A stretch of 64,000 nt of DNA from Acidobacteriota bacterium (GCA_021324935.1 JAJPIE010000037.1:1-64000); one strand, 5' to 3'; positions 6,949-41,378 are shown, counted from the first letter of the stretch. Notes: generated by a model from the letters alone, not told the origin. Numbers and translations are program-made.

Positions 6949-7292
6949 GGCTTCCCCATTCCACAGCGATTTCCCTGCGGAGCACACCCCTGCGTGCGTT
7001 CCGCGTCCCCTCGTGGGCCCGGTTCCCCTCGCTGTGTTTCCTCTTGATTTCTCGTTGGAGGTGCCTGCCTCGCGACTCGCGCGGTATTCCGCTCAAGCGC
7101 AGGGCAGTCCGAGTGGCGACTCGAGTGGCTGGTGGATGTCCTCCACGCGGAACAGTAAAGTCCTGAATTAGATTTGTCTACGGTACGGAAGGGCAGAGCG
7201 GCCCGCTCCATGGGGATACGTCGAGTACAGTTCGCGACCTGCACCCATGCTCTACGTAATTTTTCCTTGGTTTTCCCCCGGCGTGACCTTCA

Positions 7293-7637: not shown

Positions 7638-7909
7638 TGTTGCTGACCTTCCTTGTGTTGCCGGCGTGGGCGTAAGTGCGCGGCATACTTCGATATGCCC
7701 TGGAAATGCAGCAAGCGCTTTTCCACAGTGTTTCCCCTCCCGCAATCCCGTCCGAAAGTCTAAACACCTCCTAACCCTCTGAACACTAACCGTTTAGAGG
7801 CCTTCTTCCTCTTCGCCTTTTCCTTGCCGGCAATTCTCTCCTGGTAAGCCCTCAGAGTCTCGCTTTGCTTGTCTCACTCCTGAGATTCGCGGCCTTCCGC
7901 TGCGAATTT

Positions 7910-7946
7910 CCTCCAAAATAATAAGGAGCGGCCACAGGCCGCTCCT
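7910..7946 (-). terminator. Intrinsic terminator for the minus-strand gene 8037..9587
   Basis: AGGAGCGGCC-aca-GGCCGCTCCT; on the minus strand followed by TTATTATTTT. Confidence 0.75.
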
Positions 7947-8036
7947 CACAGTTTCTGCACCACCCTATGCGTGAGGAGGTCCGGAGTGCGCGAGTCAGCT
8001 AACCCCGTGCCGGCTTTGCTTGCAAGGAGTGCGAGA

Positions 8037-9587
8037 CTAGAGCGACCTCAGAAAATCCAGGATCGCCTGCTTATCCGCTGCCGAAAGTGCATCAAAGTTC
8101 CGGATCACCGTATTTGCCTCCGAAGGTCCGTAACAACCCGTCGCGTTCTCTCGGTCCTCGTGATCGCAGTCCATTCCCGCGGACCGGTGGGCCTCAATCG
8201 CCGCCAGCAGGTCGCTGGTGCGGCCATCGTGCAGGAAAAATCGCCGTTGTCCCACGCCCCAAAGCGGGGTCGTGCGGAACATGTCGCCCGTGGCCTTTCC
8301 CTGGGTGATGTCGTCGGCCAGGCCTTTGCCCATGTGGTGGATCAACAGATCCGAAAACAGGTGCGCTTCGACGTTTTGGAGCGCCTCCGTTTCGCTTTGC
8401 GGAGGCGTCACCATTACCGGCGTGTGGCACGCAAAACACCCAATGCCCGGGTTATGCACATCCGTTCCGAACAGTTGCATGCCGCGTTGCGCGCTCGCGC
8501 TCATCGGCGACGCCTGGGGCGCGTCCAGGAAGCGCATGAAGATTGCGAACATCTGCCAGTCCGGCAGAATGTGAAATGGATTGTAGAAGCTCTGATTCCG
8601 TTCATCGGTCGGATCGTTCCGGAAGATGTCGTTGGGCTCGCTCTTGTTCACCGTGCAGTTCGGAGCTTCGTCGGTGGCCTGCGGAAACAGGTCGTTCGTT
8701 ACGCCCATCTCGACGTTGTACGCCTCGCCGGCGAAAATCATGATCGACTTGTTCTGCGCCTTCCAGCCGAATCGCGTGATTGTTCCGTCATTCGGGCTGC
8801 GGTTCGGCATCCCCTGAATGCCAAGTTCCTGCCGGATCGCTGCGGTTGCTGCAAACCGGTCCAGAATTTCGCGATCCTGAATTCCATCAATGATGCCCAG
8901 TCCGAATAGCTGCAAGGGGATCCGGAACCTTACGTTGCCGCGCTTATACTCGCCATCAAAATCCGTCGGCGGCAGATCGTTTGCCGTGCACGATCCCGGT
9001 TGCCCGTTCGGAAATACGTCGGACCGGCCCACTACTGTGAAGAGTTGGTGCACGCCCCCATCCGGCGTCCCATCCGCCTTCCGCACGAATCGTACTTCGC
9101 GAATCGGCCCGTATTGCTGGATGAACGAGGGCACCTTATTCGCTGCTCCCTTGCGGTGCGCCATCAGGTCGAACATCGGGTTCTCTGGCGCCCGGTATTG
9201 ATTCGGAGGATCCTGCGGATTCGGCACCATGAAGCCACCCGAACCTCCAAAGGCCGGCTGGTTGTGACAAGCCGTGCATTGATCCCCGTTGAATCGCACG
9301 CCCAGCCCCGATGAATTCGTCTGCGTCACCAGGTTGCCCTTCGCTGGATCCGTGTACGACCCCAGCGTGATGTCGCTGCACCCATCGCACACCGCTTCCA
9401 ATTGCAGCGCGCGATTCAGTCCTTCGTTGAACATCGATAGTTCGATCGGCGTCAGCCCCTTCAGCGGCGCCCCTGCCCCCGGCGATCCTTGCCGGAGCCC
9501 CGGATCTTTTTGCGCCCAGCAAACGCCCTGGCCTGCCCCCAATACCCACAAACAACAGAACACACTGACCCCAACGCGCAAGCGCAT
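8037..9587 (-). CDS. Di-heme oxidoreductase family protein (DUF1111 / putative di-heme peroxidase)
   Basis: Two CxxCH motifs (CTACHNQPAFGGSGG, CFACHTP); C-terminal TPLWGVGQRRFFLHDGRTSDLLAAI motif typical of the family; signal peptide MRLRVGVSVFCCLW. Confidence 0.87.
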   Translation of the reverse strand: MRLRVGVSVFCCLWVLGAGQGVCWAQKDPGLRQGSPGAGAPLKGLTPIELSMFNEGLNRALQLEAVCDGCSDITLGSYTDPAKGNLVTQTNSSGLGVRFNGDQCTACHNQPAFGGSGGFMVPNPQDPPNQYRAPENPMFDLMAHRKGAANKVPSFIQQYGPIREVRFVRKADGTPDGGVHQLFTVVGRSDVFPNGQPGSCTANDLPPTDFDGEYKRGNVRFRIPLQLFGLGIIDGIQDREILDRFAATAAIRQELGIQGMPNRSPNDGTITRFGWKAQNKSIMIFAGEAYNVEMGVTNDLFPQATDEAPNCTVNKSEPNDIFRNDPTDERNQSFYNPFHILPDWQMFAIFMRFLDAPQASPMSASAQRGMQLFGTDVHNPGIGCFACHTPVMVTPPQSETEALQNVEAHLFSDLLIHHMGKGLADDITQGKATGDMFRTTPLWGVGQRRFFLHDGRTSDLLAAIEAHRSAGMDCDHEDRENATGCYGPSEANTVIRNFDALSAADKQAILDFLRSL

Positions 9588-9754
9588 GGCTTTTCTCTCC
9601 TTTAGTTTTTCGCGATACCTGATCGGGCGCGGCCGCCCGCAATTTCTCCCCGCCTCGCGGGGATGCGGCGGCAATTCCGCGCACTCTACGGGCAGCCCCT
9701 TCGCCCAATCAATGGATCGTCGATTCGCTTCACCTTCCTTTCTTCTTCCCAGCT

Positions 9755-12016
9755 ATGCATTTAAGGACACGGGAATTAGCCGGACTACCTGCCCGCAGAC
9801 TCCTTATCCTGTGCTTTTCCTTTCTCAAACTTCACCCGCTCACGCTACAATCTGGCCACTCGTTTTTCCGGACGGAGATCGCCCCTTTGCCCAAGTCCAC
9901 GCTCCTGTTCCGCTTCGACCCTTTCGAGGTGGACGCCACCGCCGGCCAGCTCCGCAAGCATGGCCTCAAGCTCCGTCTTTCCGGGCAGCCCCTTGAGATC
10001 CTGATCATGCTCCTCGAGCATCCTGGTGCGGTCGTTACCCGCGAGGAAATTCGCCAGCGCTTGTGGTCCTCCGAGACCTTTGTGGATTTTGAAAACAGCC
10101 TGAACAAAGCCATCAACAAGCTTCGCCAGGCTCTTTCCGACTCATCCGACAAGCCCACCTACATTGAGACCCTGCCTCGCCGTGGTTACCGCTTTCTCCA
10201 GCCCGTCCAACGCATCGAATCGCAGACTGTATCCGTGCAACCCGAGCCCTTCGCCCCTGCGACTTTCTCTTCCGCTCCCATCGCAACTCCCAATAAACCG
10301 CCAAAGGCCCGCGCACTTCGGCTTACTCTTTTCGTTGCCGCTGCTCTGATCTTTCTGGGTTTCTCATGGCTCTTCTTCCGTCCGCTGCCGGCCCCTCGCA
10401 TTTTGAAAATCACACCTCTCACCACTTCCGGCCGTGCTGACATGTTCGGCCGCCTGCAAACCGATGGCGTCCGCCTGTTCTTTCTCGAGCGCCGAGGCCA
10501 TCGCTGGCAACTCTCCCAGATGCCCGCTTCCGGCGGAGCCGTCGAGCCGTTTCCCACTTCGCTCTCCAATGCAAAAATTCTCTCCGTCTCGCCCGACGCC
10601 TCCGAACTCCTGCTCGCCTCCTTCACCGAGCGCGGCCGCCTGCTCGCACTCTGGCTCATGCCTTCCGTCGGCGGCACGCCCCGCCGTCTCGGCGACCTCA
10701 TGGCCACAGACGCGGTCTTCACTCCGGACGGCGCCCGGATCACCTACGCCAACGACGACGGAATTTTCGAAGTTGCCCGCGACACTCTCAATCCTCGTAA
10801 GCTCCTCGGCGCCAAAGGCCCTAAGCAGAGTCTCTCCTGGTCGCCCGACGGCAGGGAACTCCGCTTCGAGTGGATCACCGCCCCGCAAGACGGAGCCACT
10901 CTCTGGTCTGTTTCTTCCGATTCACGCAAGCTCCACCAGCTTTTTCCGGATTGGAGGGAAGCTCCCGCTCAGTGCTGTGGCCGCTTCTCCCCCGATGGCC
11001 GCTACTTTTTTTTCGTGGGTTTTTCGCCAGATGGCTCTCGCGCTGTTTACGCGCTCCGCGAGCCGCGCGGCTTTCTATTTCGCCGTTCTCTTCCACAGCG
11101 TTTGGACACCAGCCCTTTCTTCCTCGACGAGCCCGTACCCGGGCTCGATGGCCGCCATCTTTATTCGCTGGTCATCGATGCGCGTAGCGAGTACGTGCGC
11201 TTTGATCCATCCACTCACGATCTCCATCCGTTGCTTGGTGGCGCCAGCGCTTCCTGGCTGAACATCGCTCCCTCATTGGATCGGGGCGTCTTTCGCGGCG
11301 AGGGCAGCGCTCTTTTCATTAGCAAACTCAACGGCAGCGAGCGCGGCGAACTTGTTCCCGCGTCCCTCCATCCCGAAATCCCTGCCCTCAGCCCCGACGG
11401 CAAGCAAATACTTTTTTGCGCAAAACCTTCAGGCTCGCCGTTCTTCAAAATCTCCGCCGTTTCCCCCGATGGCGGCCCGGTGCACGACCTCGTCTCCGAA
11501 TCCTTTTCCGTTTACGCGCCCTCCTGGTCCCCTGACAGTGGCAAATTTCTCTATGCCGCGGATCCCGACGATTCCACCCATACCGGCGTGTTTGTGTACG
11601 ACTGCAATACCAAACACTCCCGCAAAATCCCCGGCTCCGAGGGCTTGTGGAAGTCCCGCTACTCTCCCGACGGAAAGTTCGTCGTCAGCGTCTCCGGCGA
11701 CAACAAATCCGTTCATCTCTTCGACGTTTCGTCGCAAAAATGGACCGTCATTGCCCAAGGCAAGGTCTTAAGTCCCGTCGCCTGGTCCGCCGACTCCAAA
11801 TTCCTCTTCTTTCAGGATGTCCTTGAGGACGACGAGCCCGTTCATCGCTACGACCTGCAAACCCGCAAAACGGACCTCGCCATGGAATGCCGGCCCCTCC
11901 TCGAAGGCGGGGTTCTCCGCTGTGGCTTTGAAGACGTGCTTCCCGACGGCTCGCTCCTGCTTCACCTTACCCGCGGCGACCACAACGTCTACTCGCTCGC
12001 GCTTGATCTCCCCTGA
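9755..12016 (+). CDS. CadC-like winged-helix regulator with TM segment and TolB/PD40 beta-propeller (true start probably near 9887)
   Basis: LRKHGLKLRLSGQPLEILIMLLEHPGAVVTREEIRQRLW...INKLRQALSDSSDKPTYIETLPRRGYRF OmpR-type wHTH; repeated SPDG/SWSPD propeller blades. Confidence 0.88.
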   Translation: MHLRTRELAGLPARRLLILCFSFLKLHPLTLQSGHSFFRTEIAPLPKSTLLFRFDPFEVDATAGQLRKHGLKLRLSGQPLEILIMLLEHPGAVVTREEIRQRLWSSETFVDFENSLNKAINKLRQALSDSSDKPTYIETLPRRGYRFLQPVQRIESQTVSVQPEPFAPATFSSAPIATPNKPPKARALRLTLFVAAALIFLGFSWLFFRPLPAPRILKITPLTTSGRADMFGRLQTDGVRLFFLERRGHRWQLSQMPASGGAVEPFPTSLSNAKILSVSPDASELLLASFTERGRLLALWLMPSVGGTPRRLGDLMATDAVFTPDGARITYANDDGIFEVARDTLNPRKLLGAKGPKQSLSWSPDGRELRFEWITAPQDGATLWSVSSDSRKLHQLFPDWREAPAQCCGRFSPDGRYFFFVGFSPDGSRAVYALREPRGFLFRRSLPQRLDTSPFFLDEPVPGLDGRHLYSLVIDARSEYVRFDPSTHDLHPLLGGASASWLNIAPSLDRGVFRGEGSALFISKLNGSERGELVPASLHPEIPALSPDGKQILFCAKPSGSPFFKISAVSPDGGPVHDLVSESFSVYAPSWSPDSGKFLYAADPDDSTHTGVFVYDCNTKHSRKIPGSEGLWKSRYSPDGKFVVSVSGDNKSVHLFDVSSQKWTVIAQGKVLSPVAWSADSKFLFFQDVLEDDEPVHRYDLQTRKTDLAMECRPLLEGGVLRCGFEDVLPDGSLLLHLTRGDHNVYSLALDLP

Positions 12017-26982: not shown

Positions 26983-27984
26983 ATGAAAGCCTGTTTCCTG
27001 CGCACACCTGCCGCAATTGAAACAAATCCCCTCGAGTATGGCGAATTTCCGAAGCCGGTGCCGGCGGCCGGCGAGGCTCTGATTCGCGTGGAGGTGTGCG
27101 GCGTTTGCCGCACGGACCTGCACGTGATTGAGGGAGAACTCACGGCCAAGAGATCGCCAGTGATTCCCGGGCACCAGGTGGTGGGCCACGTCGCTGCGCG
27201 CGGCACCGGAGCGGAGCGGTTGCTCCTCGGAGCGCGGGTTGGGGTGGCGTGGCTGCACAGGACGGACCAGAGTTGCGAATACTGCAAGCGCGGCGAAGAA
27301 AATCTTTGCGATCATCCGGAGTTCACGGGTTACACGGTGAACGGAGGCTACGCGGAATACCTGGTGGCGCCGGAGAATTTTGTGTATCCATTGCCGGAGA
27401 AGCTCTCCGCGGAACTCGCCGCGCCGTTACTCTGCGCGGGGATCATCGGCTACCGATGCCTGCGATTGAGCGGAGTGAAAGCGGGGGCAAAACTTGGTCT
27501 CTACGGATTTGGCGCCGCAGGTCACGTGGCCATACAGGTGGCGCGCTATTGGGGAGTGGAAGTGTATGCCTCCACGCGGGATGCGCGGCATCGAAAGTTG
27601 GCAAGCGAGTTAGGCGCGATCTGGACCGGCGGCACACTGGAGGCACCCCCGGAGAAACTCGATGCGGCAATCGTGTTCGCTCCGGCCGGGGAGATTGTGC
27701 CGGCTGCACTCGCCGCCTTGCGCAAGGGAGGTAGGCTGATTCTGGGCGGCATCCACATGAGCGATATCCCCCGCTTTCCGTATTCCCTGCTTTATCAGGA
27801 GCGGATGATACGAACTGTGGCCAACAACACGCGCCAGGACGGAGAGGAATTTCTTCGCCTGGCGGCGGAGATTCCGGTACATACGCACGTGCAGATGTTT
27901 CCGCTGGCGGACGCGAATCGCGCGCTGAACGCGCTGAAGAATGATGCGATTCCGGGCGCAGCGGTACTGCGCGTCCACGATTGA
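26983..27984 (+). CDS. Zinc-dependent alcohol dehydrogenase family protein
   Basis: [65 protein letters not shown]. Confidence 0.92.
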
Positions 27985-28032: not shown

Positions 28033-29763
28033 ATGAGAATGATCCGCGAAGTGCGATTCATGTTTTTTTGTGGATTGCTTACCACAGCGGGTTGTTCGGC
28101 AAGCGCTCCGCATGCGCAGAGGGGGCAGGCATCACAGGCGGTGTCCGCAGCGGCGGCTCCCCCGGAAACGCTTTCGCCGGCGGGCAAGGCAAAGCTCGAG
28201 GCATTGCTCAGCAAAGGACGTCTGGAAGATTTGCAGTGGCCGAATTTTTCGGAATATGCCGCGCAAGTGCGGGAATTTTATGAGAGAGACGGCACTGCCC
28301 TGGAATGGACGCGGGAGGGGAAGCCGACGCAGCAGGCGCTCCAGTTGATTGGGGAATTGGAGCAGGCCGATCGCAAAGGTCTCGATTCGCGTGATTATGA
28401 TGCGGGGCGTTGGGCGGGCCGTCTGCAGGGGCTGAACGCCTCCGGACATCCGGCGGAAACCACGCTGGTGGAGTTTGATCTGGCGTTGACGGTAAGCGGG
28501 ATGCGCTACGCCTCCGATCTGCATCTCGGGAAGATCGATCCGCGTAAGTTGCACAAATCGTTTGAACCGGATCGCACCGAATATGATCTAGCCGATTTTC
28601 TACGGAAGCGGATTGCCGTTGCGCCGGACGTGGGCGAGGCATTCAAAAAGATTGAGCCGCCATACCTCGAATACTGGCGAGCGCTGGACGCACTGCAAAA
28701 ATATCTGAAGCTGGCCCGGGACGAGCAGCGCGTTCTTCTGCCGACGGTGGCCAAGCCGGTCGCCCCTGGCAAGCCGTACGCTGCAGTGCCGCAACTCGTG
28801 GAGCGGCTGAAATTTCTCGGCGATTTGCCTGTGGATACACCGAGCGCTGCGGAAAACGGGTTGTACGAAGGCTCCGTAGTCGAGGGCGTAAAACACTTTC
28901 AGATGCGACATGGCCTGGATGCGGCGGGAACTCTGGGAGCGCAGACGATTGCGGAACTGAACCGGCCAATGAGCGACCGAGTGAAGCAATTGCAGCTCGC
29001 GCTGGAACGCTGGCGATGGGTGCCGCACAATTTCGAGCAGCCCCCGATCGTGGTGAATATCCCGGAATTTGTCTTGCGCGCATACGACGAGGAGCGCCAA
29101 GTGCGATTGACCATGCGGGTGGTTGTGGGCCGCGCCCTGCACACACAAACTCCGGTGATGGAAGAGGACATGAAGTACGTCATCTTCTGGCCTTACTGGA
29201 ATGTGCCTACAAGCATCATGCGCCACGAAATGCTCCCGAAGATTGTAAAGAATCGCGCGTACCTGCAAAAAAATGGCTACGAAGTGACCTCATATTCCGG
29301 GCAGGTGGTGACGGAGGGAGTGGTCGACGACGACGTACTGGCCAAATTGCGCGCTGCCAAGCTGATGATCCGACAGAAACCCGGACCGAAAAACGCGCTC
29401 GGGCTGATCAAATTTATTTTCCCTAATGACAAAAACGTATATCTGCACGCGACGCCGGCGCAGAGTCTGTTTTCACAGAGCCGCCGGGATTTCAGCCACG
29501 GCTGCATTCGCGTGGAGAAACCCGCCGCACTGGCGGAATGGGTGCTGCGGAATAATCCCGGCTGGACGACAGAGCGCATCGATACCGCGCTTGCCGAGCA
29601 GAAGCAGATGCAGGTGAACCTGGCGAAAACGATTCCGGTCCTGATCGTTTATGGGACGGCGGTAGTGGCGGAAGACGGCACCGTCTATTTCTTCGACGAC
29701 ATCTATGGCCTGGACAAAGAGCTCGACAACCTGTGCTGCCAGGCGTATACCGCGGACAAGTAG
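28033..29763 (+). CDS. L,D-transpeptidase family lipoprotein, YcbB/LdtD-like
   Basis: PG-binding-like region VEGVKHFQMRHGLDAAGTLGAQTIAELN and catalytic SRRDFSHGCIRVEKPAALAEWVL; lipobox-like TTAGC. Confidence 0.92.
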   Translation: MRMIREVRFMFFCGLLTTAGCSASAPHAQRGQASQAVSAAAAPPETLSPAGKAKLEALLSKGRLEDLQWPNFSEYAAQVREFYERDGTALEWTREGKPTQQALQLIGELEQADRKGLDSRDYDAGRWAGRLQGLNASGHPAETTLVEFDLALTVSGMRYASDLHLGKIDPRKLHKSFEPDRTEYDLADFLRKRIAVAPDVGEAFKKIEPPYLEYWRALDALQKYLKLARDEQRVLLPTVAKPVAPGKPYAAVPQLVERLKFLGDLPVDTPSAAENGLYEGSVVEGVKHFQMRHGLDAAGTLGAQTIAELNRPMSDRVKQLQLALERWRWVPHNFEQPPIVVNIPEFVLRAYDEERQVRLTMRVVVGRALHTQTPVMEEDMKYVIFWPYWNVPTSIMRHEMLPKIVKNRAYLQKNGYEVTSYSGQVVTEGVVDDDVLAKLRAAKLMIRQKPGPKNALGLIKFIFPNDKNVYLHATPAQSLFSQSRRDFSHGCIRVEKPAALAEWVLRNNPGWTTERIDTALAEQKQMQVNLAKTIPVLIVYGTAVVAEDGTVYFFDDIYGLDKELDNLCCQAYTADK

Positions 29764-29796
29764 TTTCGCGCTGGAAAATCAGAAAAAGCCGGCGGA

Positions 29797-30483
29797 TCAA
29801 TCGCGGGGTGTATTCGCGGCTGTGCAGCCATAGCACCAAGTGCGGACGCGACCGGTGTCCACGTGGACGAAGCCCGACCGGGGATAATAGCCCACTCCAC
29901 CCTCGTGCAGCGCTAGCGCCGCGTTGCGCAGCGTCAAGGTGCTGATGCCGGGAATGCGAATGTCGATGGCGTGCGCCCGCATGTGCAGGCTGTTTTTGGC
30001 GACGCCGGCAGAGCGCGAGCGAAGGAATTCATTACTCCACGAGGAGCGGTAACCGCAGATGATGTCGATCTCGGCGTTAGGACGCCCGACGGCGGCGGTG
30101 AGCTGCGACAGGATGTCAAACAGGCGCGGATCGTAGTGCTTTACATCGCCGGTGCGATGGTCGCGCAGGAAGTGGTCAAGCTGAGCTTCGGCTTCGGGGA
30201 GAAATGTGTCGCCGTGGCGATAGACGATATCGATGTGTTCGCCGGTGTGCGTGTGAAAAAGACGCAGATGTTGATCGAGTGTGTGGTCAGGCTCGACGGC
30301 GAAGCTGGTTGAGTTGAATGCGATTGCGTATACAAGGCAGAACGCGAAAACAAAAACAAAGGCCACCACAGAAATGCGCAAGCAGCACCCTCCACTTTTT
30401 ATTTGGATGGCTCGCGGTCCCGGCGTGGTTTGCTGGGAGATGCGGGCGAAATTGAGATAGGAACGCAACCAAATGGGCGGCAA
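29797..30483 (-). CDS. DUF882/YcbK (MepK-like) zinc peptidase, M15 superfamily
   Basis: ICGYRSSWSNEFLRSRSAGVAKNSLHMRAHAIDIRIPG...SGFVHVDTGRVRTW. Confidence 0.88.
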   Translation of the reverse strand: MPPIWLRSYLNFARISQQTTPGPRAIQIKSGGCCLRISVVAFVFVFAFCLVYAIAFNSTSFAVEPDHTLDQHLRLFHTHTGEHIDIVYRHGDTFLPEAEAQLDHFLRDHRTGDVKHYDPRLFDILSQLTAAVGRPNAEIDIICGYRSSWSNEFLRSRSAGVAKNSLHMRAHAIDIRIPGISTLTLRNAALALHEGGVGYYPRSGFVHVDTGRVRTWCYGCTAANTPRD

Positions 30484-30512: not shown

Positions 30513-30529
30513 TGTGATTTTCCATCACA
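30513..30529. promoter_or_regulatory. Palindrome TGTGAT-TTTCC-ATCACA, candidate upstream activator site
   Basis: 6-bp perfect arms; matches 34203..34219 in arms, spacer length and position relative to the promoter. Confidence 0.6.
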
Positions 30530-30802: not shown

Positions 30803-31003
30803 ATGGGTATGACGGTGAAATCATCGAATCGCTCCCACCGAATTCTTTACATGATTATGTTGCTTGGATTCGCCGTGGCACTGACCACTGCGCTGGTGCT
30901 GGCGGTCGAGCGGAGCCCCGAAGAAATGAAGTCGAGTACCCTACAGTCAAACACCGTCCCCGCGTTGCGTTCCGTTTGCCTGTGGGGGAACCGCAATGCG
31001 TAG
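30803..31003 (+). CDS. Small single-TM protein, leader gene of cytochrome operon
   Basis: 66 aa ORF, one hydrophobic helix YMIMLLGFAVALTTALVLAV; stop overlaps the downstream start by 8 bp. Confidence 0.5.
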   Translation: MGMTVKSSNRSHRILYMIMLLGFAVALTTALVLAVERSPEEMKSSTLQSNTVPALRSVCLWGNRNA

Positions 31004-32441
31004 GACCGTAAATCCCTCCGGAAAATTTGGCGAAATCGCTCTGGGAATTCCGGCGCTCGTCCTGATGCTGGTGCTGCCGGTGCGCGCGGACATCCATCCG
31101 GTTCCCCTGGACAAAAACACCGATGCGGCAAAGTGCCTGGAATGCCACGGCGACAAGGCACAGGGAAAACACGTGCACACGGCGATTTCGACAGGCTGCC
31201 TGAGCTGCCACGAGATCCGCGTGAATCGCGATGTGACGCGCGTGAAGCTGATCACCACTTCACCCGCCTCACTCTGCTTCACTTGCCATGCGGACAAGAA
31301 CCCCGCGGACATCAAAGGCGTGGTGCATGCTCCGGCGCGGCGCGATTGCCTGAAGTGCCACGATCCGCACGAGTCCGACAACGAATTTCAATTGCTGAAG
31401 GCGCCGGAAGGGGATCAGAAGACAAACCTGTGCCTGGAATGCCATAACATCGGCGTGAATGTGCCGGAAAAGGGCAGCCGGCACGCGGCGCTGGATATGG
31501 GTTGCGAGACCTGCCACAAGACCCATAAGACGGGCGAAAAGGAGAACCAGGAGTTTGATTATCACCTGACGAAGCCGACGCCCGCGCTGTGCATCGATTG
31601 CCACGATCCGAAGGACGAAGCTTTACAGAAGGCACACCAGAACCAGCCCTTCGGCACGGCGAATTGCATCGAGTGCCACGATCCGCACCAATCGGCACTG
31701 CCGAAGCTGATGGCGAAATACGTTCACCCGCCGTTTGCGGACAAGCAGTGCGAAGTATGCCACGAGCCGGCGAAAGACGGAAAAGTGGTGTTGACGCAGC
31801 CCGACGCGAAATCGCTCTGCGTGATGTGCCACGACGAAAAAGCAAAAGCGATCGAGAGCGCCAAGGTGCAGCATCCGGGCGCGGCCGGGGATTGCACGGA
31901 TTGCCACACTCCGCATGCCAGCAAGTACATCGCGCTGCCAAAGACCAATCCAGTGGACATCTGTCTGGGCTGCCACGCGGATATCGCCGACCTGGCGAAG
32001 AAGCCGGTGCATCACCAGCCAGCCTTCCAACAGGGCTGCGGCACGTGCCATGAACCGCACGGCGGGGAACGCGAAAAGCTGCTGCGCGCCGACGGAAACA
32101 ATCTTTGCCTGGACTGCCATGGTCCGGATTCCACGCCGCAGCAGGACAAAACCACCGGGCTCTACAAGATATTCAACGGCAAGGTCAGTCTGCCCGACGA
32201 CTACTTCACGAAGAACAAGGTGCCCATTCTGCCGCTGCGCTATGGGAAAGGTCACCCGGTGATGGGTCATCCGGTTTCGGACGTTCCCGATCCGACCGAC
32301 CCCTCCAAGGTCTTCGCCAAAATCAGCTGCCTGACGTGCCACCAGCCGCACAGTTCGGCGTATCCCAATCTGATTGCCAAAGATCAGCAGAACAATACGC
32401 AGTTTTGCGCCACGTGCCACAAGGACCTGACCAAGCGATAG
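30996..32441 (+). CDS. Multiheme c-type cytochrome, 16 CxxCH motifs
   Basis: Signal peptide; 16 CxxCH counted by eye (CLECH, CLSCH, CFTCH ... CLTCH, CATCH). Confidence 0.95.
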   Translation: MRRTVNPSGKFGEIALGIPALVLMLVLPVRADIHPVPLDKNTDAAKCLECHGDKAQGKHVHTAISTGCLSCHEIRVNRDVTRVKLITTSPASLCFTCHADKNPADIKGVVHAPARRDCLKCHDPHESDNEFQLLKAPEGDQKTNLCLECHNIGVNVPEKGSRHAALDMGCETCHKTHKTGEKENQEFDYHLTKPTPALCIDCHDPKDEALQKAHQNQPFGTANCIECHDPHQSALPKLMAKYVHPPFADKQCEVCHEPAKDGKVVLTQPDAKSLCVMCHDEKAKAIESAKVQHPGAAGDCTDCHTPHASKYIALPKTNPVDICLGCHADIADLAKKPVHHQPAFQQGCGTCHEPHGGEREKLLRADGNNLCLDCHGPDSTPQQDKTTGLYKIFNGKVSLPDDYFTKNKVPILPLRYGKGHPVMGHPVSDVPDPTDPSKVFAKISCLTCHQPHSSAYPNLIAKDQQNNTQFCATCHKDLTKR

Positions 32442-32467
32442 AGTGAATTTTCCGGGGAGAGACCGCC

Positions 32468-33745
32468 ATGTGCAAAATCGTTATAAGCCGAGATTTTTCG
32501 AAGCGGGCAGCGAGCTTGCTTGCCGTCCTTGCCCTGCTGGCGTCGCTGGTTCCCGGGGCGCTCGAAGCGAACGACAAGAAGAAAAAAAAGAGCAAGGAAG
32601 AAGAGCAGGCTGAGATTGCCGCGAAAATCAAGGCAATCGATTACTCTTTTATTGTGTGGCCCAACCCGCCAGCCGTCGCGCGCATCCGGTACACGAACTG
32701 GTACTCCTCCGATAAGGAAAAGCGAAATGTCCAGGGAAAGGTCCAGAAGAAGAATTCCTGGATGGACCGGCTCGCTGGGACGCAAACCGGCGACGAAGTC
32801 TTCAGCATGCCGTTCCAACTGGTCCAGCCTTATGGGATCGCCGTCGATTCGAAGGGCAACGCCTATGTGGCGGACTCCAAGGTGGGAGCCATCTTCATCT
32901 TCAATACGGATACGCGCGAGGTGCAACTGATCAAGAACGGGTCCGACGCGCATTTCGTGCGTATCATCGGCTTGGCCATGGACGATGACGACCGGTTGTT
33001 CGTGTCCGATCCCGGCCTGCGCCACGTGCTGGTCTTCAATAAGGACCACAAGGCACAGGACGTGATCACCGAAGGAATGGCGGAGCCAGGAGACCTGGCG
33101 ATTGACACGCAAAACAGGCTGCTCTACGTGTCCGACGTGACGCTCGATCAGGTATTGGTTTACGACGCGGATACCCTGAAGCCGGTGCGGAAAATCGGCA
33201 CGACGGGGCATAAGCACTCGCTAACAAGCCCTGGCGATTTCGCGCGCCCGAGCGGACTGGCAGTGGACCGCGAGGGAAATCTTTACGTGGCGGATACCCT
33301 GAACAATCGCATCGAGATCTTCGATCCCGACGGCAATTTCATCAGTGCGTTCGGAAAGAGCGGAGACGGTCCTGGTTACTTTTCGAGGCCCAAGGGCGTG
33401 GCCATCGACAGCGACGGCCACCTCTGGGTCGCCGACGGAATGCAAGACCGCGTGCAGGTATTTTCGAAAGACGGCAGTCAGTTGATGATTTCATTTGGCG
33501 GGCACGGGTTGCTGCCGGGTCAGTTCCAGGGGCTGGTGAATATTGTGATCGATAAGCAGGACCGTGTGTTCACCACGGAGATTTATCCCGGGCGCTTGCA
33601 GCAGATGCAGTACGTCACGGATGCGCAGGCAGAAAAGGAACGCGAGCGGCGCGAGAAAGAGCGTGCGAAGCAAACCGCGGAGCGCCACGCCCCTGCGTCA
33701 CAGCCGGAAGCCGCGCCCGCAGCGGTGCCAAACGCCAAGCCATAG
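32468..33745 (+). CDS. NHL-repeat beta-propeller protein, secreted
   Basis: Repeats PYGIAVDSKGNAYVADS, PSGLAVDREGNLYVADTLNNRIEIFDPDGNFI, PKGVAIDSDGHLWVADGMQDRVQVF. Confidence 0.9.
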   Translation: MCKIVISRDFSKRAASLLAVLALLASLVPGALEANDKKKKKSKEEEQAEIAAKIKAIDYSFIVWPNPPAVARIRYTNWYSSDKEKRNVQGKVQKKNSWMDRLAGTQTGDEVFSMPFQLVQPYGIAVDSKGNAYVADSKVGAIFIFNTDTREVQLIKNGSDAHFVRIIGLAMDDDDRLFVSDPGLRHVLVFNKDHKAQDVITEGMAEPGDLAIDTQNRLLYVSDVTLDQVLVYDADTLKPVRKIGTTGHKHSLTSPGDFARPSGLAVDREGNLYVADTLNNRIEIFDPDGNFISAFGKSGDGPGYFSRPKGVAIDSDGHLWVADGMQDRVQVFSKDGSQLMISFGGHGLLPGQFQGLVNIVIDKQDRVFTTEIYPGRLQQMQYVTDAQAEKERERREKERAKQTAERHAPASQPEAAPAAVPNAKP

Positions 33746-33842
33746 CGGCAATGGGCCTTTGGCCAAGCCGGCAGCCAGAACTTGGCTGGCGGCGAGAGCA
33801 GCAACGAGAAGAGCAGAGAAGAGCCAAGAGTAAAACAGGAAG

Positions 33843-33877
33843 AGAGCGCTGGTTTGCGGCCAGCGCTCTTGTTTTTG
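33843..33877 (+). terminator. Rho-independent terminator closing the 16-heme/NHL transcript
   Basis: AGAGCGCTGG-tttgcgg-CCAGCGCTCT followed by TGTTTTT. Confidence 0.88.
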
Positions 33878-34202
33878 CGGCGAAGCTTTCCTTTCCGGCT
33901 GTCCCCGTTATTGAACGAAGACATCAAACAATGCCGTGGCGCTGAGACTCTCGCGCCCGCAGGAGGGCGGATCTCCGTACGGCAAAGGAAAACAAGACGA
34001 GTGCATGCATGGATTCGCAGAGGGAATCGGTGCGAAGTCGAGGGACATCGTGCATGTCTCGCCGTCAAAAAAATTTGCGGGCAGCAAAGAAATGCTGCGG
34101 TGAATCGCAGCAATGCCGCGGCATCGTGCGCGCGGATGTGTGCGTGAACGTGTGGCTGTGATGTGCAACACACAAAAGGGTTTATCCGTTCAACACAAAC
34201 TG

Positions 34203-34219
34203 TGTGATTGCTCATCACA
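34203..34219. promoter_or_regulatory. Palindrome TGTGAT-TGCTC-ATCACA, candidate upstream activator site
   Basis: Same arms and spacer length as 30513..30529; extended 40-bp alignment about 28/40 identical. Confidence 0.6.
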
Positions 34220-34350
34220 ACTGAGCCATATCGCGCAAACGAGCCGAGGTGGGGCAATTTTGGCAGCCCTTGCCGAAGGGGACTAGTACCGCAACGGATA
34301 GAAAATTAAACACTTACGGCAAGTCTTAGGAAACGCCGATTTTGTGCCGG

Positions 34351-34368
34351 TTCGGCATAACAGATGCA
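34351..34368 (+). promoter_or_regulatory. Candidate sigma-54 (-24/-12) promoter TTCGGCATAACAGATGCA
   Basis: GG-N10-GC spacing; 15/18 identical to 30664..30681. Confidence 0.6.
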
Positions 34369-34466
34369 CTTTGGGACAACGCAGGCCGGCCCGCTCCAGG
34401 CTCTGGCCATTTACGAAGTGGAAACTTAAGTTCCGTCTCGCAACACACATGGAGGTTTCACAAGTT

Positions 34467-35384
34467 ATGAAAAAGGCGATCTTAGTAGCGCTTTTTGGAC
34501 TGGCCAGCGCCGGATTGGCATTCGGCCAGAACGCGACATCCACGGTCGACGTCCTCGGAGCTCACAATAACCAGGGCCGCGGCTGCGCGGGATGCCACTC
34601 ACCGCACAGCGGCTCGTTCGGTTCGGGCCATGGCGGCGCGGCGGATGCCGGCTCCTATGCATTGTGGGGCCAGGATGCCAGCCCACTCTACGGCAAGACC
34701 CTCGCATTCGGCGACGGCGGCTCGTACGTAGAAGTTCTGCCCAGCACCATCGCCACGGGTTCGCAGGAAGTTGGCGGCATTCTCCTCTGCCTCAGCTGCC
34801 ATGACGGCAACGTGACCCCGACCAACATGATGACCAAGCAGTCCTACGAACAAAAGATCGGTTTGTTGACGAACGTAGCGTATGGCAGCCAGCCGATTCC
34901 GACGCTGCTCGGCAACGACGGCACGACCACCGGCAATTACACCAACGACCACCCGGTGGGCCAGAATGCAACGATTCGCGCGGGCAACGGCCTGGTGTGG
35001 GCCAACAATACCTTTACCGTGACCGCAGGCTCGCCCTATGCCCAGTTCGTAGCCAACTACGGCTGGCCCGCATTGGCTCCTGGAAAGTGGAGCAGCCCCT
35101 ACGCCGTCAATGGCGCCGGACAGGCCTATGTCCTCTGCACCACCTGCCACAACCAGCACGTTATGACCGTGTACACCTCCTCCGCGAATAGCCCGATCGC
35201 GGGCGACGGCGGCGGAAAGTATTACAACACGTTCTTCTTCGTGAACGGCCCGTACAACCCGAACATCACGCCCGACCCGACCGGCAAGACGGCTCCTTCG
35301 ACCACCCAGTTCTGCCGCCAGTGCCACTTCGGCGAAGCGAACGAAGCCAACAACACCAACACCATCACGACGCAATTCCAGTAG
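34467..35384 (+). CDS. Tetraheme cytochrome (cytochrome c3 family; OmcE-like candidate)
   Basis: Start MKKAILVALFGLASAGLAFG with GGAGG RBS; four CxxCH: CAGCHSPHSG, CLSCHDG, CTTCHNQH, CRQCHFG; NDHPVG motif. Confidence 0.88.
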   Translation: MKKAILVALFGLASAGLAFGQNATSTVDVLGAHNNQGRGCAGCHSPHSGSFGSGHGGAADAGSYALWGQDASPLYGKTLAFGDGGSYVEVLPSTIATGSQEVGGILLCLSCHDGNVTPTNMMTKQSYEQKIGLLTNVAYGSQPIPTLLGNDGTTTGNYTNDHPVGQNATIRAGNGLVWANNTFTVTAGSPYAQFVANYGWPALAPGKWSSPYAVNGAGQAYVLCTTCHNQHVMTVYTSSANSPIAGDGGGKYYNTFFFVNGPYNPNITPDPTGKTAPSTTQFCRQCHFGEANEANNTNTITTQFQ

Positions 35385-35399
35385 AACGTCCAGCGGTTC

Positions 35400-35433
35400 G
35401 GGGGAGAGAAGGTCTTCTCTCCCCCTTTTTTTT
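35400..35433 (+). terminator. Strong intrinsic terminator between tetraheme cytochrome and PPIase genes
   Basis: GGGGGAGAGAAG-gt-CTTCTCTCCCCC followed by TTTTTTTT. Confidence 0.93.
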
Positions 35434-35457
35434 AGAAAGGAACGGAGGCATTCCATC

Positions 35458-36477
35458 ATGAGGTACCTGGTAGTTTTCGCTCTACTACTAGCGGCGGCGA
35501 CCAACGCAAGTTCTCAAGTTTCCTCCCACGCACCGACGGCTCTTGCAACGGCCAATACTCCTTCCAGCTCGGCCTTCAACGTCAGCGACAAACCGGTAGC
35601 CAAAGTGAACGGGGCGATTCTGACCGACCGCGACTTGCTGCGCGAAATGCTGCAGATTTTTCCTTACGCCAGCCAGCACAACGGATTTCCGAAAGAGCAA
35701 GAGGCATCCATCCGGCAGGGCGCCCTGCAGATGATTATCTTCGAGGAACTGGTGTACCAAGAGGCGATGCGGCGCAAGCTGACGGTCTCGCCGCAAGCGT
35801 TGAAGCAGTCCGAGCTCGAGTTCAAGAAGCAATTTCATTCCGCTCAGGAATACCAGCAGTATCTGGTGACCGAGATGGGCGGCTCGGAACAGAACGTTAT
35901 CGGCAAGATCAAGAGGTCGCTGCTGATCGAAAAGGTATTGAAAAGCGATGTGCAGGACAAGTCCGAGGTAACGCCGGCCGAAGTGCGGGCCTACTACGAC
36001 AAGAATCCGGGCAAGTTTCGCGTTGCGGAATCCTATAGCTTTCAATCGATTTCCATTCTGCCGCCGCTGCATCCGACGCCGGACCAGCAGAAAGAAGCGG
36101 CCAAGCGAGCGAACGACTACCTGAAACAGGCGCAAGCGGCCAAGACGTACCAGGATTTCGGATTGTTGGCGGAAAAGATTTCCGAGGACGATTTCCGCGT
36201 GAACATGGGCGATCACCATTCGGTGAGCAAGGAGCAGCTCCCGCCGCAGGTGGGGAAAGCGCTTTCGAGCATGAAGCCCGGCACGATCAGCGGGCTGATC
36301 CCGATCGAATCGGCGTACACCATCGTGCGGTTGAACGCGCACACGCCGGCCGGAAAACAGAGCTTTGAATCCGTCAAGGCTGGCCTGCGGACGCAATTGC
36401 AGCAGGCCAAATACGAAAGCCTTCGCGCGGGACTCGACAAGGCCCTCAGGGCCAAAGCCCAGGTCCAGATCCTGTAG
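35458..36477 (+). CDS. Periplasmic peptidyl-prolyl cis-trans isomerase (SurA/PrsA/parvulin type)
   Basis: SurA_N-like VAKVNGAILTDRDLLREM and parvulin-like region SYSFQSISILPP...PPQVGKALSSMKPGTISGLIPIESAYTIVRL; signal peptide. Confidence 0.85.
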   Translation: MRYLVVFALLLAAATNASSQVSSHAPTALATANTPSSSAFNVSDKPVAKVNGAILTDRDLLREMLQIFPYASQHNGFPKEQEASIRQGALQMIIFEELVYQEAMRRKLTVSPQALKQSELEFKKQFHSAQEYQQYLVTEMGGSEQNVIGKIKRSLLIEKVLKSDVQDKSEVTPAEVRAYYDKNPGKFRVAESYSFQSISILPPLHPTPDQQKEAAKRANDYLKQAQAAKTYQDFGLLAEKISEDDFRVNMGDHHSVSKEQLPPQVGKALSSMKPGTISGLIPIESAYTIVRLNAHTPAGKQSFESVKAGLRTQLQQAKYESLRAGLDKALRAKAQVQIL

Positions 36478-36499
36478 GGGAAGCAGGAAAGAGGTTGGG

Positions 36500-38341
36500 G
36501 TGAAACGAATTCTCCAATGCGGCGGCCTCCTGATGGTTCTGCTGGCGGCGGCAAGCGCGCGCGCGCAGTTGCAGGTCGGAGACACGACCATGCGCATGAA
36601 CGGCACGCTCACCGGCGGCTATTCGGCCGGCTACGGAGATCAGATCCCCTCGAATCACAGCGTGAACTTTGGCGCGGACGCGCAACTCAGCGGCGATTAC
36701 TACAACCCGAATTTTCTAAACTTCGATATCACCCCGTATTACAACCGTTCCACGTCCGATTCGACGTTTCAATCCTTGACCGATGCCTCGGGACTGAACG
36801 CGAATGTGAACCTGTTTACGGGCAGCAGAACCCCGGGTTACGTAAGCTTCAACTACACGCGGAACTCGACCGGAAATTTCGGATTGATCGGGACGCCGAA
36901 TTTCACCACGATCGGCAACGGATACGGTTTTGGCATCGGATGGAGCCTGTTGCTTCCGGACAAGCCGACCCTCTCTTTCAGCTATTCGCAGGGTTCGGGA
37001 GGCGGGAACGTTTATGGGACGAATGAGGAGTCGCATTCCGCCCTGAAAACGTTCAACCTGCGTTCCAGCTATATGCTTGCGGGCTGGAACCTGAACGCCT
37101 ACTATCAGCGCCTCAGCAACGATTCTCAGTTGCCGACGTTTCTTTCCGGAGAGACGAATCTGAGCTACAGCTCGACGACCGGCAATGTCCTGGGAGTGAA
37201 CGGGTCGCATGCCCTTCCGTGGAACGGCAGCGTATCGATGTACTACACTTACTCGACCTATTCGGGCCATTTCAACGATACCTCGCAACCCTACGACAAC
37301 TTCACGGACTTTTCGACCAACACCGAGGCGGCGAATGTGGTCTTCCATCCGACGAAGAAGTGGAGCTTGTACGGCAGCGAAAATTACACCGACAATTTGA
37401 ATGGCTATTTGTACCAGAATATCGCCAACAACGGCCAGGGCGTTCCGATCAACCAGCAGAATTCGACCTCCAATTCGTTCACCACCAGCGCCGGCGTGGG
37501 GTACAACATTCTCCCCAACCTTTTTGCCCAGGGCCAGATTACCTACTTTCAGCAATCGTACTTCGGGCAAACTTACACGGGAAGCTACATGTCGGGTTTG
37601 CTGGGCTATGGCAAGCGGATCTTCGGCATCTTCAGTCTGTCCGCGAGCGTGATCGACAGCACCAATCAGTTTTCGAACAACAATCTGGGATTCATCGCCA
37701 ACATCGACGGCTTCAAGCGCATCGGAGAGTGGGAAGTTTCCGGGAATCTGAGCTACGCGCAGAATGTGCAGACCCTGCTGGTGACCTACACAACCTCCTA
37801 TTACAATTACGGCGGCAACTTGCATCATCGCCTGGGCAGAGGGAAGCAGGTCACCTTTGCTTACAATGGGTCGCACAGCGGTCTGAACCAGGGCCAGGGA
37901 TCCTACGATTACAGCAACAGTTTTTCGACCACGCTGGCGATGCGCCGCGTCACACTTGGCGCAACGTATATCAAATCCAAGGGACTTTCGATCCTCACCA
38001 GCACGGGTATCCAGCCCATTACGCCGACGCCCGGATTGCCGCCCCTTGGGCAGATTGTTTACAATGGCACCAGCTACGGCGGAAACGTCGGGTTTACCCC
38101 GGTGGCAAGGCTAACCTTAAGCGCATCCTACTCCCACGCCGTGAGCGATACCCTCGCGAACGACATTTCTTCCCAGAATCGCACCGAGATTTTCTACACG
38201 CAGTTGCAATACCGGCTGCGCCGCGTCAACGTTTTCGCGGGCTACACGAAATTTTCCCAGGGGATCAGCGCGGCAGGCACTCCGCCGGGTAACACGTATT
38301 CGTATTTCATCGGAGTGTCGAGATGGCTCAGCTTCTTTTAG
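36500..38341 (+). CDS. Outer-membrane beta-barrel porin-like protein (GTG start)
   Basis: GTG with RBS; signal peptide VKRILQCGGLLMVLLAAASARAQ; long run of alternating amphipathic strands; aromatic end YFIGVSRWLSFF. Confidence 0.82.
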   Translation: MKRILQCGGLLMVLLAAASARAQLQVGDTTMRMNGTLTGGYSAGYGDQIPSNHSVNFGADAQLSGDYYNPNFLNFDITPYYNRSTSDSTFQSLTDASGLNANVNLFTGSRTPGYVSFNYTRNSTGNFGLIGTPNFTTIGNGYGFGIGWSLLLPDKPTLSFSYSQGSGGGNVYGTNEESHSALKTFNLRSSYMLAGWNLNAYYQRLSNDSQLPTFLSGETNLSYSSTTGNVLGVNGSHALPWNGSVSMYYTYSTYSGHFNDTSQPYDNFTDFSTNTEAANVVFHPTKKWSLYGSENYTDNLNGYLYQNIANNGQGVPINQQNSTSNSFTTSAGVGYNILPNLFAQGQITYFQQSYFGQTYTGSYMSGLLGYGKRIFGIFSLSASVIDSTNQFSNNNLGFIANIDGFKRIGEWEVSGNLSYAQNVQTLLVTYTTSYYNYGGNLHHRLGRGKQVTFAYNGSHSGLNQGQGSYDYSNSFSTTLAMRRVTLGATYIKSKGLSILTSTGIQPITPTPGLPPLGQIVYNGTSYGGNVGFTPVARLTLSASYSHAVSDTLANDISSQNRTEIFYTQLQYRLRRVNVFAGYTKFSQGISAAGTPPGNTYSYFIGVSRWLSFF

Positions 38342-39435
38342 AAAAGAGGTCGCTCCTGAGCTTGCAAGGAAAAATGCTGGCGGCGTGCCTGGCCGGGACG
38401 TTGTGCCTGACTCCGGCGGGATTTGCCACGGACAAAAAGAAAAACGAGCCGGTGCGGATCGACATTCCCGAACTGCTTCTGGATGGGGGCCGGAAGCTGC
38501 GCTTCGAGCGGATGTTCAGCACGGAGCAGGAAGTGAAGCCCAAGAAGGGGTTCTGGACGAAGGTCGTGGACGTGGTGATCGGGGCGCCGGACTATCACAC
38601 CATGGTCAGGCCCTACAGCATCACCACCGATTCGAAGGGGCGGATCATCGTCACCGATCCGGGCGCGCATGGCGTGCACATCTTCGACTTCAACAAGGAA
38701 AAATACAAATTTTTGTCGCGCCAGGACACCGATCACAACCCGTTGGTCGAGCCGCAGTGCGTGGCCGTGGACGCCGAAGACCGCATCTACGTGACCGATT
38801 CGGACGCCGGGAAGATTTTCGTCTTCAATCCGAGCGGGAAGCTGGAGCGCGTGATCGGCGCGCTGAAATACGGCGAGGGGTTTTTCAAGCGGCCGACGGG
38901 CATCGCCATCGATTCGGCGGCGCAACGGATTTACGTGAGCGACACTCTGCGCGACCAGATTTTCGAGATGGACATGCAGGGAAGCGTGCTGCGGAAGATC
39001 GGCAAGCGCGGAACGGGCGACGGGGAATTCAACTATCCCACCGAATTGCGGTTGCATGGCGATTCGCTGGCGGTGGTGGAAGCGATGAATTTCCGCGTGC
39101 AGGTGCTGGACAAGAACGGCGAGTACCAATACTCAATCGGGAAGATCGGCGACCATGTGGGGTCGATGTTCCGGCCAAAGGGTGTGGGCTTCGATTCCGA
39201 GGGGCACCTTTATGTGGTCGACGGGATGTGGAGTGTCGTGCAGGTGTTCGATCGGGAAGGACAATTGCTTTATTACTTCGGGAAGCTCGGCACGGCGCCG
39301 GGCGATTTCCAGTTGCCCACGGGCTTGCGCATCGACGACCAGGACCGGATTTATGTGGTGGATTCGTTCAACAAGCGCGTGCAGGTGTATCACTATTTCG
39401 GCGCGGCGAGCGCCACGGGCGGGGTGAAGCCGTGA
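38323..39435 (+). CDS. NHL-repeat beta-propeller protein
   Basis: PYSITTDSKGRIIVTDPGAHGVHIFD and PTGIAIDSAAQRIYVSDTLRDQIFEMD repeats; paralogous to 32468..33745; overlaps end of porin gene. Confidence 0.9.
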   Translation: MAQLLLEKRSLLSLQGKMLAACLAGTLCLTPAGFATDKKKNEPVRIDIPELLLDGGRKLRFERMFSTEQEVKPKKGFWTKVVDVVIGAPDYHTMVRPYSITTDSKGRIIVTDPGAHGVHIFDFNKEKYKFLSRQDTDHNPLVEPQCVAVDAEDRIYVTDSDAGKIFVFNPSGKLERVIGALKYGEGFFKRPTGIAIDSAAQRIYVSDTLRDQIFEMDMQGSVLRKIGKRGTGDGEFNYPTELRLHGDSLAVVEAMNFRVQVLDKNGEYQYSIGKIGDHVGSMFRPKGVGFDSEGHLYVVDGMWSVVQVFDREGQLLYYFGKLGTAPGDFQLPTGLRIDDQDRIYVVDSFNKRVQVYHYFGAASATGGVKP

Positions 39436-41378
39436 AGCAGAAACTTCTCATCGCCGCGCTGGTGTTGCTGGTCACGATGGCCTGCCGATTGGCATTTGCG
39501 CAGACCACGCCTCCGCCACCGACGGGGGACGCGCTGGGCATGCACAACATGTCGGCGGGGAGCGGTTCGTCGGTGACCGCGCCGGGAAGCCTCGGCTGCA
39601 CGTTTTGCCACGCGCCGCACAGCGGATTGGGCGGCGTGACACCGTTGTGGAACCAGCAGTTGTCTCAGCAGACTTACACGCCGTATACGAGCACGACGTA
39701 CAAGCAGAAGGGAAATACGCAGCCGACGCTGGGCGTGACCAGCAGCCTGTGCTTGAGTTGCCACGACGGCACGGTGGCCGTGGGACAGACCGCAGTGTTC
39801 GGAAAAATTCCCGTGAGCGGCGCCTTGAACAACATCGACGTTTTGACCACCAACCTGAGCGGATCCCACCCCTTCAGCCTGGTGTTGCCGATCAAGGATT
39901 CGCCGGACCTGGCCGCATCGCTGGCGGCGCAGGGCGTGACCGCCGATCCGACGGGAGCGGTCAAGCTGGTAAACGGAAATATTGAGTGCACGAGCTGCCA
40001 CAATCCGCACGTGCAAGGCATCGATACCGTGGCGCAGAACTTCCTGGTGCGCGACAGTTCTAACGGGCAGATGTGCCTGGCGTGCCATGATCCGGCGCGC
40101 ACGCTGACCGGGCAGGTAAATCCGCTGACCGGATGGACCGGGAGCATTCACCAGACGGCGACGAATCAGGTGGCGAACACGGCGAATGTGGGTGTGTACC
40201 CGACCGTTGCGGTGAACGCGTGCACTTCGTGCCACATGGAGCACAACGCCGGGGGGCCTTCGCGGCTGATGCGGCCGGCGACGCCCGCGGCGCCGGGTGT
40301 GGACGCGGCTACGCAGGATTGCATTTCGTGCCACGGCGGAACGAACGCGAACATCTCGCCCCTGCCGCTGAACGTTTATGGTGAGTTTTCGAAGATCTCG
40401 CACTTATTGCCGGCGGGCAGCAATCTGCACGACGCGGCCGAGCCGGCGGTTTTGAACAACAATCGCCATGCGACGTGCGTGGACTGCCACGATCCGCACT
40501 CGGGAAATCGGCTTACGGTGTTTGCGCAGCCGCCCGCGATCCGGCCGCCGCAGAGCGGCGTGGAAGGCGTCAGCGCCGCGGACGGCAGTACGGTGCTTGC
40601 ACCGGCGGTGAATCAATACGAAAGCTGTTTCCGCTGCCATGGCACCAGCGTTGGCAAACAGGTGCTGATCAAGTACGGCTACTTGCCGACCCGGCTGGTG
40701 TTTTCGGGCGATCCTCTCAATCTGATCCCGCAGTTCAGCCCAAGTTCCACGTCGAGTCACCCGGTGGTGCATCCCCGGAGCAGCCCATTGCCGCAACCCA
40801 GCTTGCTGACGAACATGCTCAATCAGAACGGCACGGCTTCGAGCCGCCTGGTGGGCTCGCAGATTTTCTGCACCGATTGCCACGCCAGCGACGACAATCG
40901 CGAATTTGGCGGGGCCGGCCCGAACGGACCACACGGCTCGATCTATCCACATATCCTGGAGCGCAACTATCAGTTTTCACAGGCGGGCGTGCCGGGCGGG
41001 CCGGTCACGAACACGTTCCCGACGCCAGACCTGAGCCCGCTGGGACCTTACGCCATGTGCGCGAAGTGCCACGACCTGAACAACGTTATTTCCAACGCGA
41101 GTTGGGCGCAGCACGGGCGGCACATTTCCAACGACGGATTCTCCTGCTCGGTGTGCCACACGGCGCACGGTATGGGATCGGTGAACCCCAGCGTAACCGG
41201 CGAACGGTTGATTAATTTCGATGTGAACGTAGTCGGCCAGAATAACGGCGCGCCCATTTCGTATAACCATGCCACAAACACTTGCACGTTGACCTGCCAC
41301 AATGCCGCGCACAACCCGGATGGCAGCGTCTCCGTGAATGGAACGGTCTTGCCCCAGGTGATGGGAATCAAGCACTGA
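39432..41378 (+). CDS. Multiheme c-type cytochrome, 11 CxxCH plus one CX3CH (GTG start)
   Basis: GTGA overlap with NHL gene; signal peptide VKQKLLIAALVLLVTMACRLAFA; 11 CxxCH counted plus CTLTCH. Confidence 0.92.
   Translation: MKQKLLIAALVLLVTMACRLAFAQTTPPPPTGDALGMHNMSAGSGSSVTAPGSLGCTFCHAPHSGLGGVTPLWNQQLSQQTYTPYTSTTYKQKGNTQPTLGVTSSLCLSCHDGTVAVGQTAVFGKIPVSGALNNIDVLTTNLSGSHPFSLVLPIKDSPDLAASLAAQGVTADPTGAVKLVNGNIECTSCHNPHVQGIDTVAQNFLVRDSSNGQMCLACHDPARTLTGQVNPLTGWTGSIHQTATNQVANTANVGVYPTVAVNACTSCHMEHNAGGPSRLMRPATPAAPGVDAATQDCISCHGGTNANISPLPLNVYGEFSKISHLLPAGSNLHDAAEPAVLNNNRHATCVDCHDPHSGNRLTVFAQPPAIRPPQSGVEGVSAADGSTVLAPAVNQYESCFRCHGTSVGKQVLIKYGYLPTRLVFSGDPLNLIPQFSPSSTSSHPVVHPRSSPLPQPSLLTNMLNQNGTASSRLVGSQIFCTDCHASDDNREFGGAGPNGPHGSIYPHILERNYQFSQAGVPGGPVTNTFPTPDLSPLGPYAMCAKCHDLNNVISNASWAQHGRHISNDGFSCSVCHTAHGMGSVNPSVTGERLINFDVNVVGQNNGAPISYNHATNTCTLTCHNAAHNPDGSVSVNGTVLPQVMGIKH

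Follow-up and report, generated by a model that had tools for sequence, protein, structure and literature searches.

The DNA considered here, a window of 64,000 nucleotides from an Acidobacteriota bacterium (GCA_021324935.1, JAJPIE010000037.1:1-64000), carries between positions 30,803 and 41,378 a block of multiheme cytochrome, NHL propeller, peptidyl-prolyl isomerase (PPIase) and porin genes that probably encodes a porin-cytochrome conduit across the outer membrane together with an extracellular wire of the OmcE type, a reading to which we give a probability of about 0.66. That the locus serves extracellular electron transfer (EET) in some form is very likely. The evidence lies chiefly in the homology of a tetraheme cytochrome and of part of a 12-heme cytochrome to the filament protein OmcE of Geobacter sulfurreducens, in the kinship of a 16-heme cytochrome with MtrA, in the prediction of a large beta-barrel, and in the inheritance of the whole set as a block.

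The tetraheme cytochrome and OmcE

The notion of a wire stems from the tetraheme cytochrome, which an initial annotation of the same DNA had likened to OmcE. As a single sequence searched with phmmer against the PDB, the window protein matched neither OmcE nor any other solved structure, and a profile of its family was therefore built. With this profile 9YUQ is found at E=6.5e-14 and OmcE (7TFS) at E=5.1e-8 when it is made from 10 rows, and at 6.2e-13 and 2.8e-7 respectively when it is made from 43, and these two outrank every other cytochrome in the PDB. Furthermore, a 218-aa form that occupies the same slot in sister genomes (syntenic locus L021) matches OmcE directly (E=2.9e-17) and aligns with it through the last heme motif; the resemblance named in the initial annotation holds up. 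The 9YUQ entry, which has 16 chains, is named 'Putative multiheme cytochrome c', and a literature search for it found no paper.

In an alignment of OmcE-like modules (43 rows, OmcE and 9YUQ included; numbering of the window tetraheme protein) the four CxxCH motifs are present in every row, as are the non-motif histidines H162 and H231, while H33 and H47 are each kept in 42 of the 43. The CxxCH-PH, CLSCHDG and NDHP motifs pointed out in the initial annotation are likewise present and conserved, and OmcE and 9YUQ, both exported tetraheme proteins, share with the window protein the same four CxxCH and four distal-type histidine positions as well as the CHxPH, LW, CHDG, DHP and CHxxH landmarks. 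Judged by its sequence, the window protein thus belongs with the OmcE family, being homologous along the chain and having four hemes and four equivalent distal-type histidines. It could be argued that the likeness reflects nothing beyond the CxxCH pattern that multiheme cytochromes have in common, as the empty single-sequence search and the tendency of CxxCH-rich sequences to inflate scores might suggest, but this is highly improbable, since in the profile search of the whole PDB the top places go to 9YUQ and OmcE, with cytochromes c3 and the cytochromes of reaction centres far below, and since the alignment is collinear over the length of the chain and includes an N-terminal histidine, LW, CHDG and DHP, all of them outside the CxxCH motifs.

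In OmcE a histidine of the neighbouring subunit ligates one heme across the subunit interface (PMC9473688, PMC12307469). The family of the window protein has four conserved non-motif histidines for its four hemes, and the count alone cannot tell ligation across subunits from ligation within the chain. A conduit without a wire, in which the tetraheme protein would be a monomeric shuttle or a surface reductase, would agree with this count, by which all four hemes could be ligated in-chain, with the divergence of the protein from OmcE and its long loops, and with the fact that polymerisation is itself deduced. However, 9YUQ has an equal count, OmcE aligns at the same positions and yet ligates across subunits (PMC9473688), and orthologues of OmcE length occupy the tetraheme slot in sister genomes, and we consider a conduit of this kind rather unlikely.

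The 12-heme cytochrome and the candidate conduit

The 12-heme cytochrome listed in the initial annotation is indeed present, with 11 CxxCH motifs and a twelfth of the CxxxCH type (CTLTCH; C618/C622/H623) that is invariant in all 26 aligned homologues, but its relation to OmcE had been missed. Residues 1-212 of its family profile match full-length OmcE at E=2.3e-27 and 9YUQ at E=4.2e-20, a far stronger match to OmcE than that of the standalone tetraheme protein, and the 12-heme protein therefore consists of an OmcE-like module (about residues 1-227) followed by eight hemes. The same design recurs in four Desulfuromonadales loci (L126 of a Geobacter sp., L104, L106 and L090, the last cut at its start), where one or two standalone OmcE homologues are directly preceded by the gene of a fused protein with 9 or 10 hemes and an N-terminal OmcE module (identity to OmcE 31-33%, E-values as low as 3e-27). 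Nothing in the locus is more informative than this pairing of fused and standalone OmcE-type genes, and its repetition in Desulfuromonadales points to contact between the fused protein and the wire. We tentatively propose that the 12-heme protein, exported by way of its signal peptide and presumably placed at the cell surface, may serve as wire base or cap: its N-terminal module would join the tetraheme filament by the kind of histidine bond that would hold the tetraheme subunits to one another, and the remaining eight hemes would link to the barrel conduit.

The Desulfuromonadales loci resemble the window locus in their order of MtrA-like cytochrome, NHL propeller, porin, NHL propeller, fused cytochrome and standalone OmcE homologue, and differ from it in having an extra 5-heme cytochrome, in the absence of the PPIase from the stretch seen, and in a barrel with no detectable sequence relation to that of the window locus. 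Of the neighbours that the initial annotation had expected of an OmcE-type locus, the NHL propellers and the porin are accordingly found there and the PPIase is not. An equation of these loci with the OmcE locus of G. sulfurreducens was considered and dropped, since GSU0612 corresponds to ppcA and GSU0613-0614 to biogenesis genes, and since a monocistronic transcript has been predicted for omcE (PMC2700814, PMC1829397).

The conduit would be made up of the 16-heme cytochrome and the barrel, and here too the candidate named in the initial annotation gains support. The family profile of the 16-heme protein finds the Mtr-complex component MtrA (6r2q_A, for which the depositors' label differs) at E=7.9e-29, and all 16 motifs as well as many non-motif histidines are conserved across the 27 rows of the family; by sequence it is an extended relative of MtrA. 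The barrel, on whose presence the initial annotation had staked its proposal, is predicted by AlphaFold2 from an alignment of 35 sequences to have 28 long strands, with a mean predicted local distance difference test (pLDDT) score of 78.2. In a Foldseek search with this model MtrB (6r2q_B) comes second by E-value, has the highest TM-score shown (0.52/0.50) and is the best neighbour over the whole barrel, and a comparison with MtrB by VIA-align gives a Z of 14.0 for 422 residues, a value that other barrels share. As the barrel profile has no sequence match in the PDB, we regard the protein as a barrel similar to MtrB in size and type that constitutes a sequence family of its own, and it is predicted to be large enough to hold a cytochrome and so to act as the sleeve of the conduit. 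The window locus is in this respect comparable to MtrCAB (6R2Q), which likewise has a periplasmic multiheme cytochrome of the MtrA kind, a large barrel and a further large multiheme cytochrome, the counterpart of which in the window is proposed for the surface. The periplasmic cytochrome has however 10 hemes in MtrCAB and 16 in the window, the putative surface protein is an OmcE module with eight hemes in place of MtrC, the barrel has no sequence match to MtrB/PioB, and the window locus adds the candidate wire, the PPIase and two NHL propellers.

A clustering of large cytochromes, PPIase, six-bladed propeller, porin and wire cytochrome is also seen in the Oet conduit and in an operon of 16-heme cytochrome, 26-heme cytochrome, PPIase and beta-propeller described from other Deltaproteobacteria (Skennerton 2017, PMC5539420; Murali 2023, PMC10553843). 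The 26-heme partner has no counterpart in the window locus, where the largest companion has 12 hemes, and the candidate wire gene of the window is OmcE-like, not OmcS-like.

Gene order, distribution and regulation

Every gene named in the initial annotation lies where it had been placed and in the order given, and all are well formed and on the plus strand; in several cases adjacent genes share a few bases, in an operon-like manner (Table 1). Searches of Pfam and NCBIfam back the paired-CxxCH, c7 and c3 cytochromes as well as the NHL and parvulin-type PPIase domains, and find no family match for the barrel or the 66-aa transmembrane (TM) protein. Homologues of the latter lie 5' of the 16-heme gene in two loci of the same genus (L013 and L014).

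Table 1. Genes and candidate operators of the locus, in positions of the window
Feature	Position	Strand	Basis and remarks
Palindrome TGTGAT-N5-ATCACA, candidate CRP/FNR-type operator	30513..30529	.	5' of first transcription unit
Small single-TM protein, 66 aa	30803..31003	+	Sequence; 3' end overlaps start of 16-heme gene
16-heme periplasmic cytochrome, MtrA-like, proposed heme chain inside barrel	30996..32441	+	16 CxxCH; profile match to MtrA
Exported NHL beta-propeller 1	32468..33745	+	PF01436 E=1.6e-26; conserved slot; putative assembly/scaffold role
Palindrome TGTGAT-N5-ATCACA, second copy	34203..34219	.	5' of second transcription unit
OmcE-family tetraheme cytochrome, candidate filament subunit	34467..35384	+	ATG start, 305 aa, 4 CxxCH
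Exported parvulin-type PPIase, SurA-like N-terminal domain	35458..36477	+	PF13145 E=3.1e-18, PF13624 E=9.4e-11; putative assembly chaperone
Large outer-membrane beta-barrel, candidate conduit sleeve	36500..38341	+	GTG start; 28 strands predicted (AlphaFold2)
Exported NHL beta-propeller 2	38323..39435	+	PF01436 E=3.7e-25
12-heme cytochrome, candidate surface cytochrome/wire anchor	39432..41378	+	11 CxxCH + 1 CxxxCH; signal peptide

Relatives were searched with the tetraheme protein, which yielded ten further loci with the same seven-gene order in full or in part, and a scan of 84,980 genomes added 79 loci. The full order is found in 22 of 45 acidobacterial loci (about 41 distinct ones, since four contigs were entered twice), and most of the remaining loci end at contig edges. 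In 5 of the 45 two blocks are rearranged and yet intact, namely 16-heme-NHL and tetraheme-PPIase-barrel-NHL-12-heme, and the 720-bp gap between the first NHL propeller gene and the tetraheme gene therefore forms the border between two transcription units, each of which moves as a module. The conservation of the order is far beyond chance, and the genes are inherited together as a block. Among 297 genomes sampled across the phylum, tetraheme matches better than 1e-35 occur only in the class of the source genome.

A second tetraheme gene is present in some loci, and in most of the rearranged ones it lies on the opposite strand; in the rearranged loci L062, L064, L066, L068, L074 and L081 this extra standalone gene lies 3' of the 12-heme gene. 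The cultured Occallatibacter savannae AB23 has the second block (L062), whereas its 16-heme gene (L146) is far from the remaining block and is broken in the assembly by one in-frame TGA.

The palindrome TGTGAT-N5-ATCACA occurs in exactly two copies in the source genome (4.5 Mb, 95 contigs), one ahead of each transcription unit. This exact palindrome was not found in relatives when up to 2 mismatches were allowed; the broader CRP/FNR-like pattern TGTGA-N6/7-TCACA is enriched about 23-fold in relatives within 500 bp 5' of block genes (10 sites in 37.5 kb, the two of the window counted in, vs 8 in 690 kb). Judging from these sites, the two transcription units are probably co-regulated.

Directly 5' of the locus (28033-30483) are genes for an L,D-transpeptidase (YkuD, plus strand) and an M15 peptidase (DUF882, minus strand), cell-wall enzymes that are apparently unrelated to it, and a zinc alcohol dehydrogenase-like gene (26983-27984) is found just upstream of the block in L013 and L014 as well, with about 79% identity. 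The only further CxxCH gene seen in the window encodes a di-haem oxidoreductase or putative peroxidase (PF06537; 8040-9674, minus strand).

Other candidate EET genes reside elsewhere in the genome. One stretch (L142, G000:C75:9000-27943) encodes at 6960-10580 on the minus strand a DmsE/MtrA-type decaheme cytochrome (TIGR03508, E=2.5e-74) followed by an 846-aa MtrB/PioB barrel (PF11854, E=9e-74). A second (L144, G000:C46:267000-286000) encodes at 6609-10283 on the minus strand a 719-aa inner-membrane protein with 13 CxxCH motifs and a b561-type membrane domain, adjoining a 491-aa pentaheme protein of the NapC/NirT type, an arrangement which we take to be that of CbcL-like quinol oxidoreductases. 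The latter pair is likely to be the quinol side of an EET chain, and the presence of all these proteins in the same genome makes the remainder of such a chain plausible.

Electron flow, reservations and significance

In the conduit and wire that we favour, electrons from the quinol pool would pass by way of inner-membrane multiheme cytochromes and periplasmic carriers to the 16-heme protein, which would thread the barrel and hand them to the 12-heme protein at the surface. A head-to-tail polymer would arise from the tetraheme subunits, each of which would supply, as OmcE does, one histidine ligand to a heme in its neighbour, and wire and conduit would probably be joined by way of the OmcE module of the 12-heme protein. 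The wire could then pass electrons to minerals, humic matter or other cells, and the PPIase and NHL propellers may aid in export or assembly of the cytochromes.

The apparatus might instead work inwards, with Fe(II), a mineral or a partner as electron source in the manner of PioAB or MtoAB, since conduits of the MtrA/MtrB type also serve Fe(II) oxidisers (PMC3669403) and direction is not fixed by sequence. The nearest relatives in architecture are however Desulfuromonadales loci of the metal-reducer type, and multiheme proteins of NapC and b561 type for the quinol side are found in the genome, although these can run in reverse; electron uptake is in our view distinctly unlikely.

Several observations nonetheless weigh against a conduit with an OmcE-type wire. 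The window tetraheme protein is some 75 residues longer than OmcE (305 vs 232 aa) with divergent loops, and besides the failure of the single-sequence search its AlphaFold monomer model, made from a 10-row alignment, reaches a pLDDT of 33.5 and is unusable. In a tree of the modules it sits on a long acidobacterial branch of 15 rows, the acidobacterial standalone forms being recovered as one group (70/92). On the other side of the tree are OmcE and 9YUQ, together with the forms from Desulfuromonadales and, among those from acidobacteria, the fused modules and the short forms of L019 and L021; the window protein is therefore a divergent homologue and positional counterpart of OmcE and not a demonstrated orthologue. 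The barrel has no match to the MtrB/PioB family (PF11854) in sequence searches of Pfam, NCBIfam and the PDB, and we claim no homology to the Desulfuromonadales porins, for which the profile-profile probability is 8.5%. The distribution is furthermore patchy, with tetraheme matches in 10 of 101 relatives, and filament formation, the surface location of the 12-heme protein and the direction of electron flow are deduced from these comparisons.

A 2025 review counts the attachment of cytochrome nanowires to the cell, and the place at which electrons enter them, among the unresolved questions (PMC12307469), and a 12-heme protein in which a wire-subunit module is followed by eight hemes is a concrete candidate for the joint. 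An earlier porin-cytochrome report found for Acidobacteriota concerns a Holophaga genome (PMC7399161), and the present locus places a cluster of OmcE homologue and conduit in Terriglobia, the dominant acidobacteria of soil and peat. The barrel family appears not to be held in current profile libraries, and surveys by MtrB, OmbB or Ext models would therefore miss these loci. If the 12-heme protein does anchor the wire, the pair of fused and standalone OmcE proteins, kept in two phyla, would identify how a nanowire is anchored and fed with electrons.

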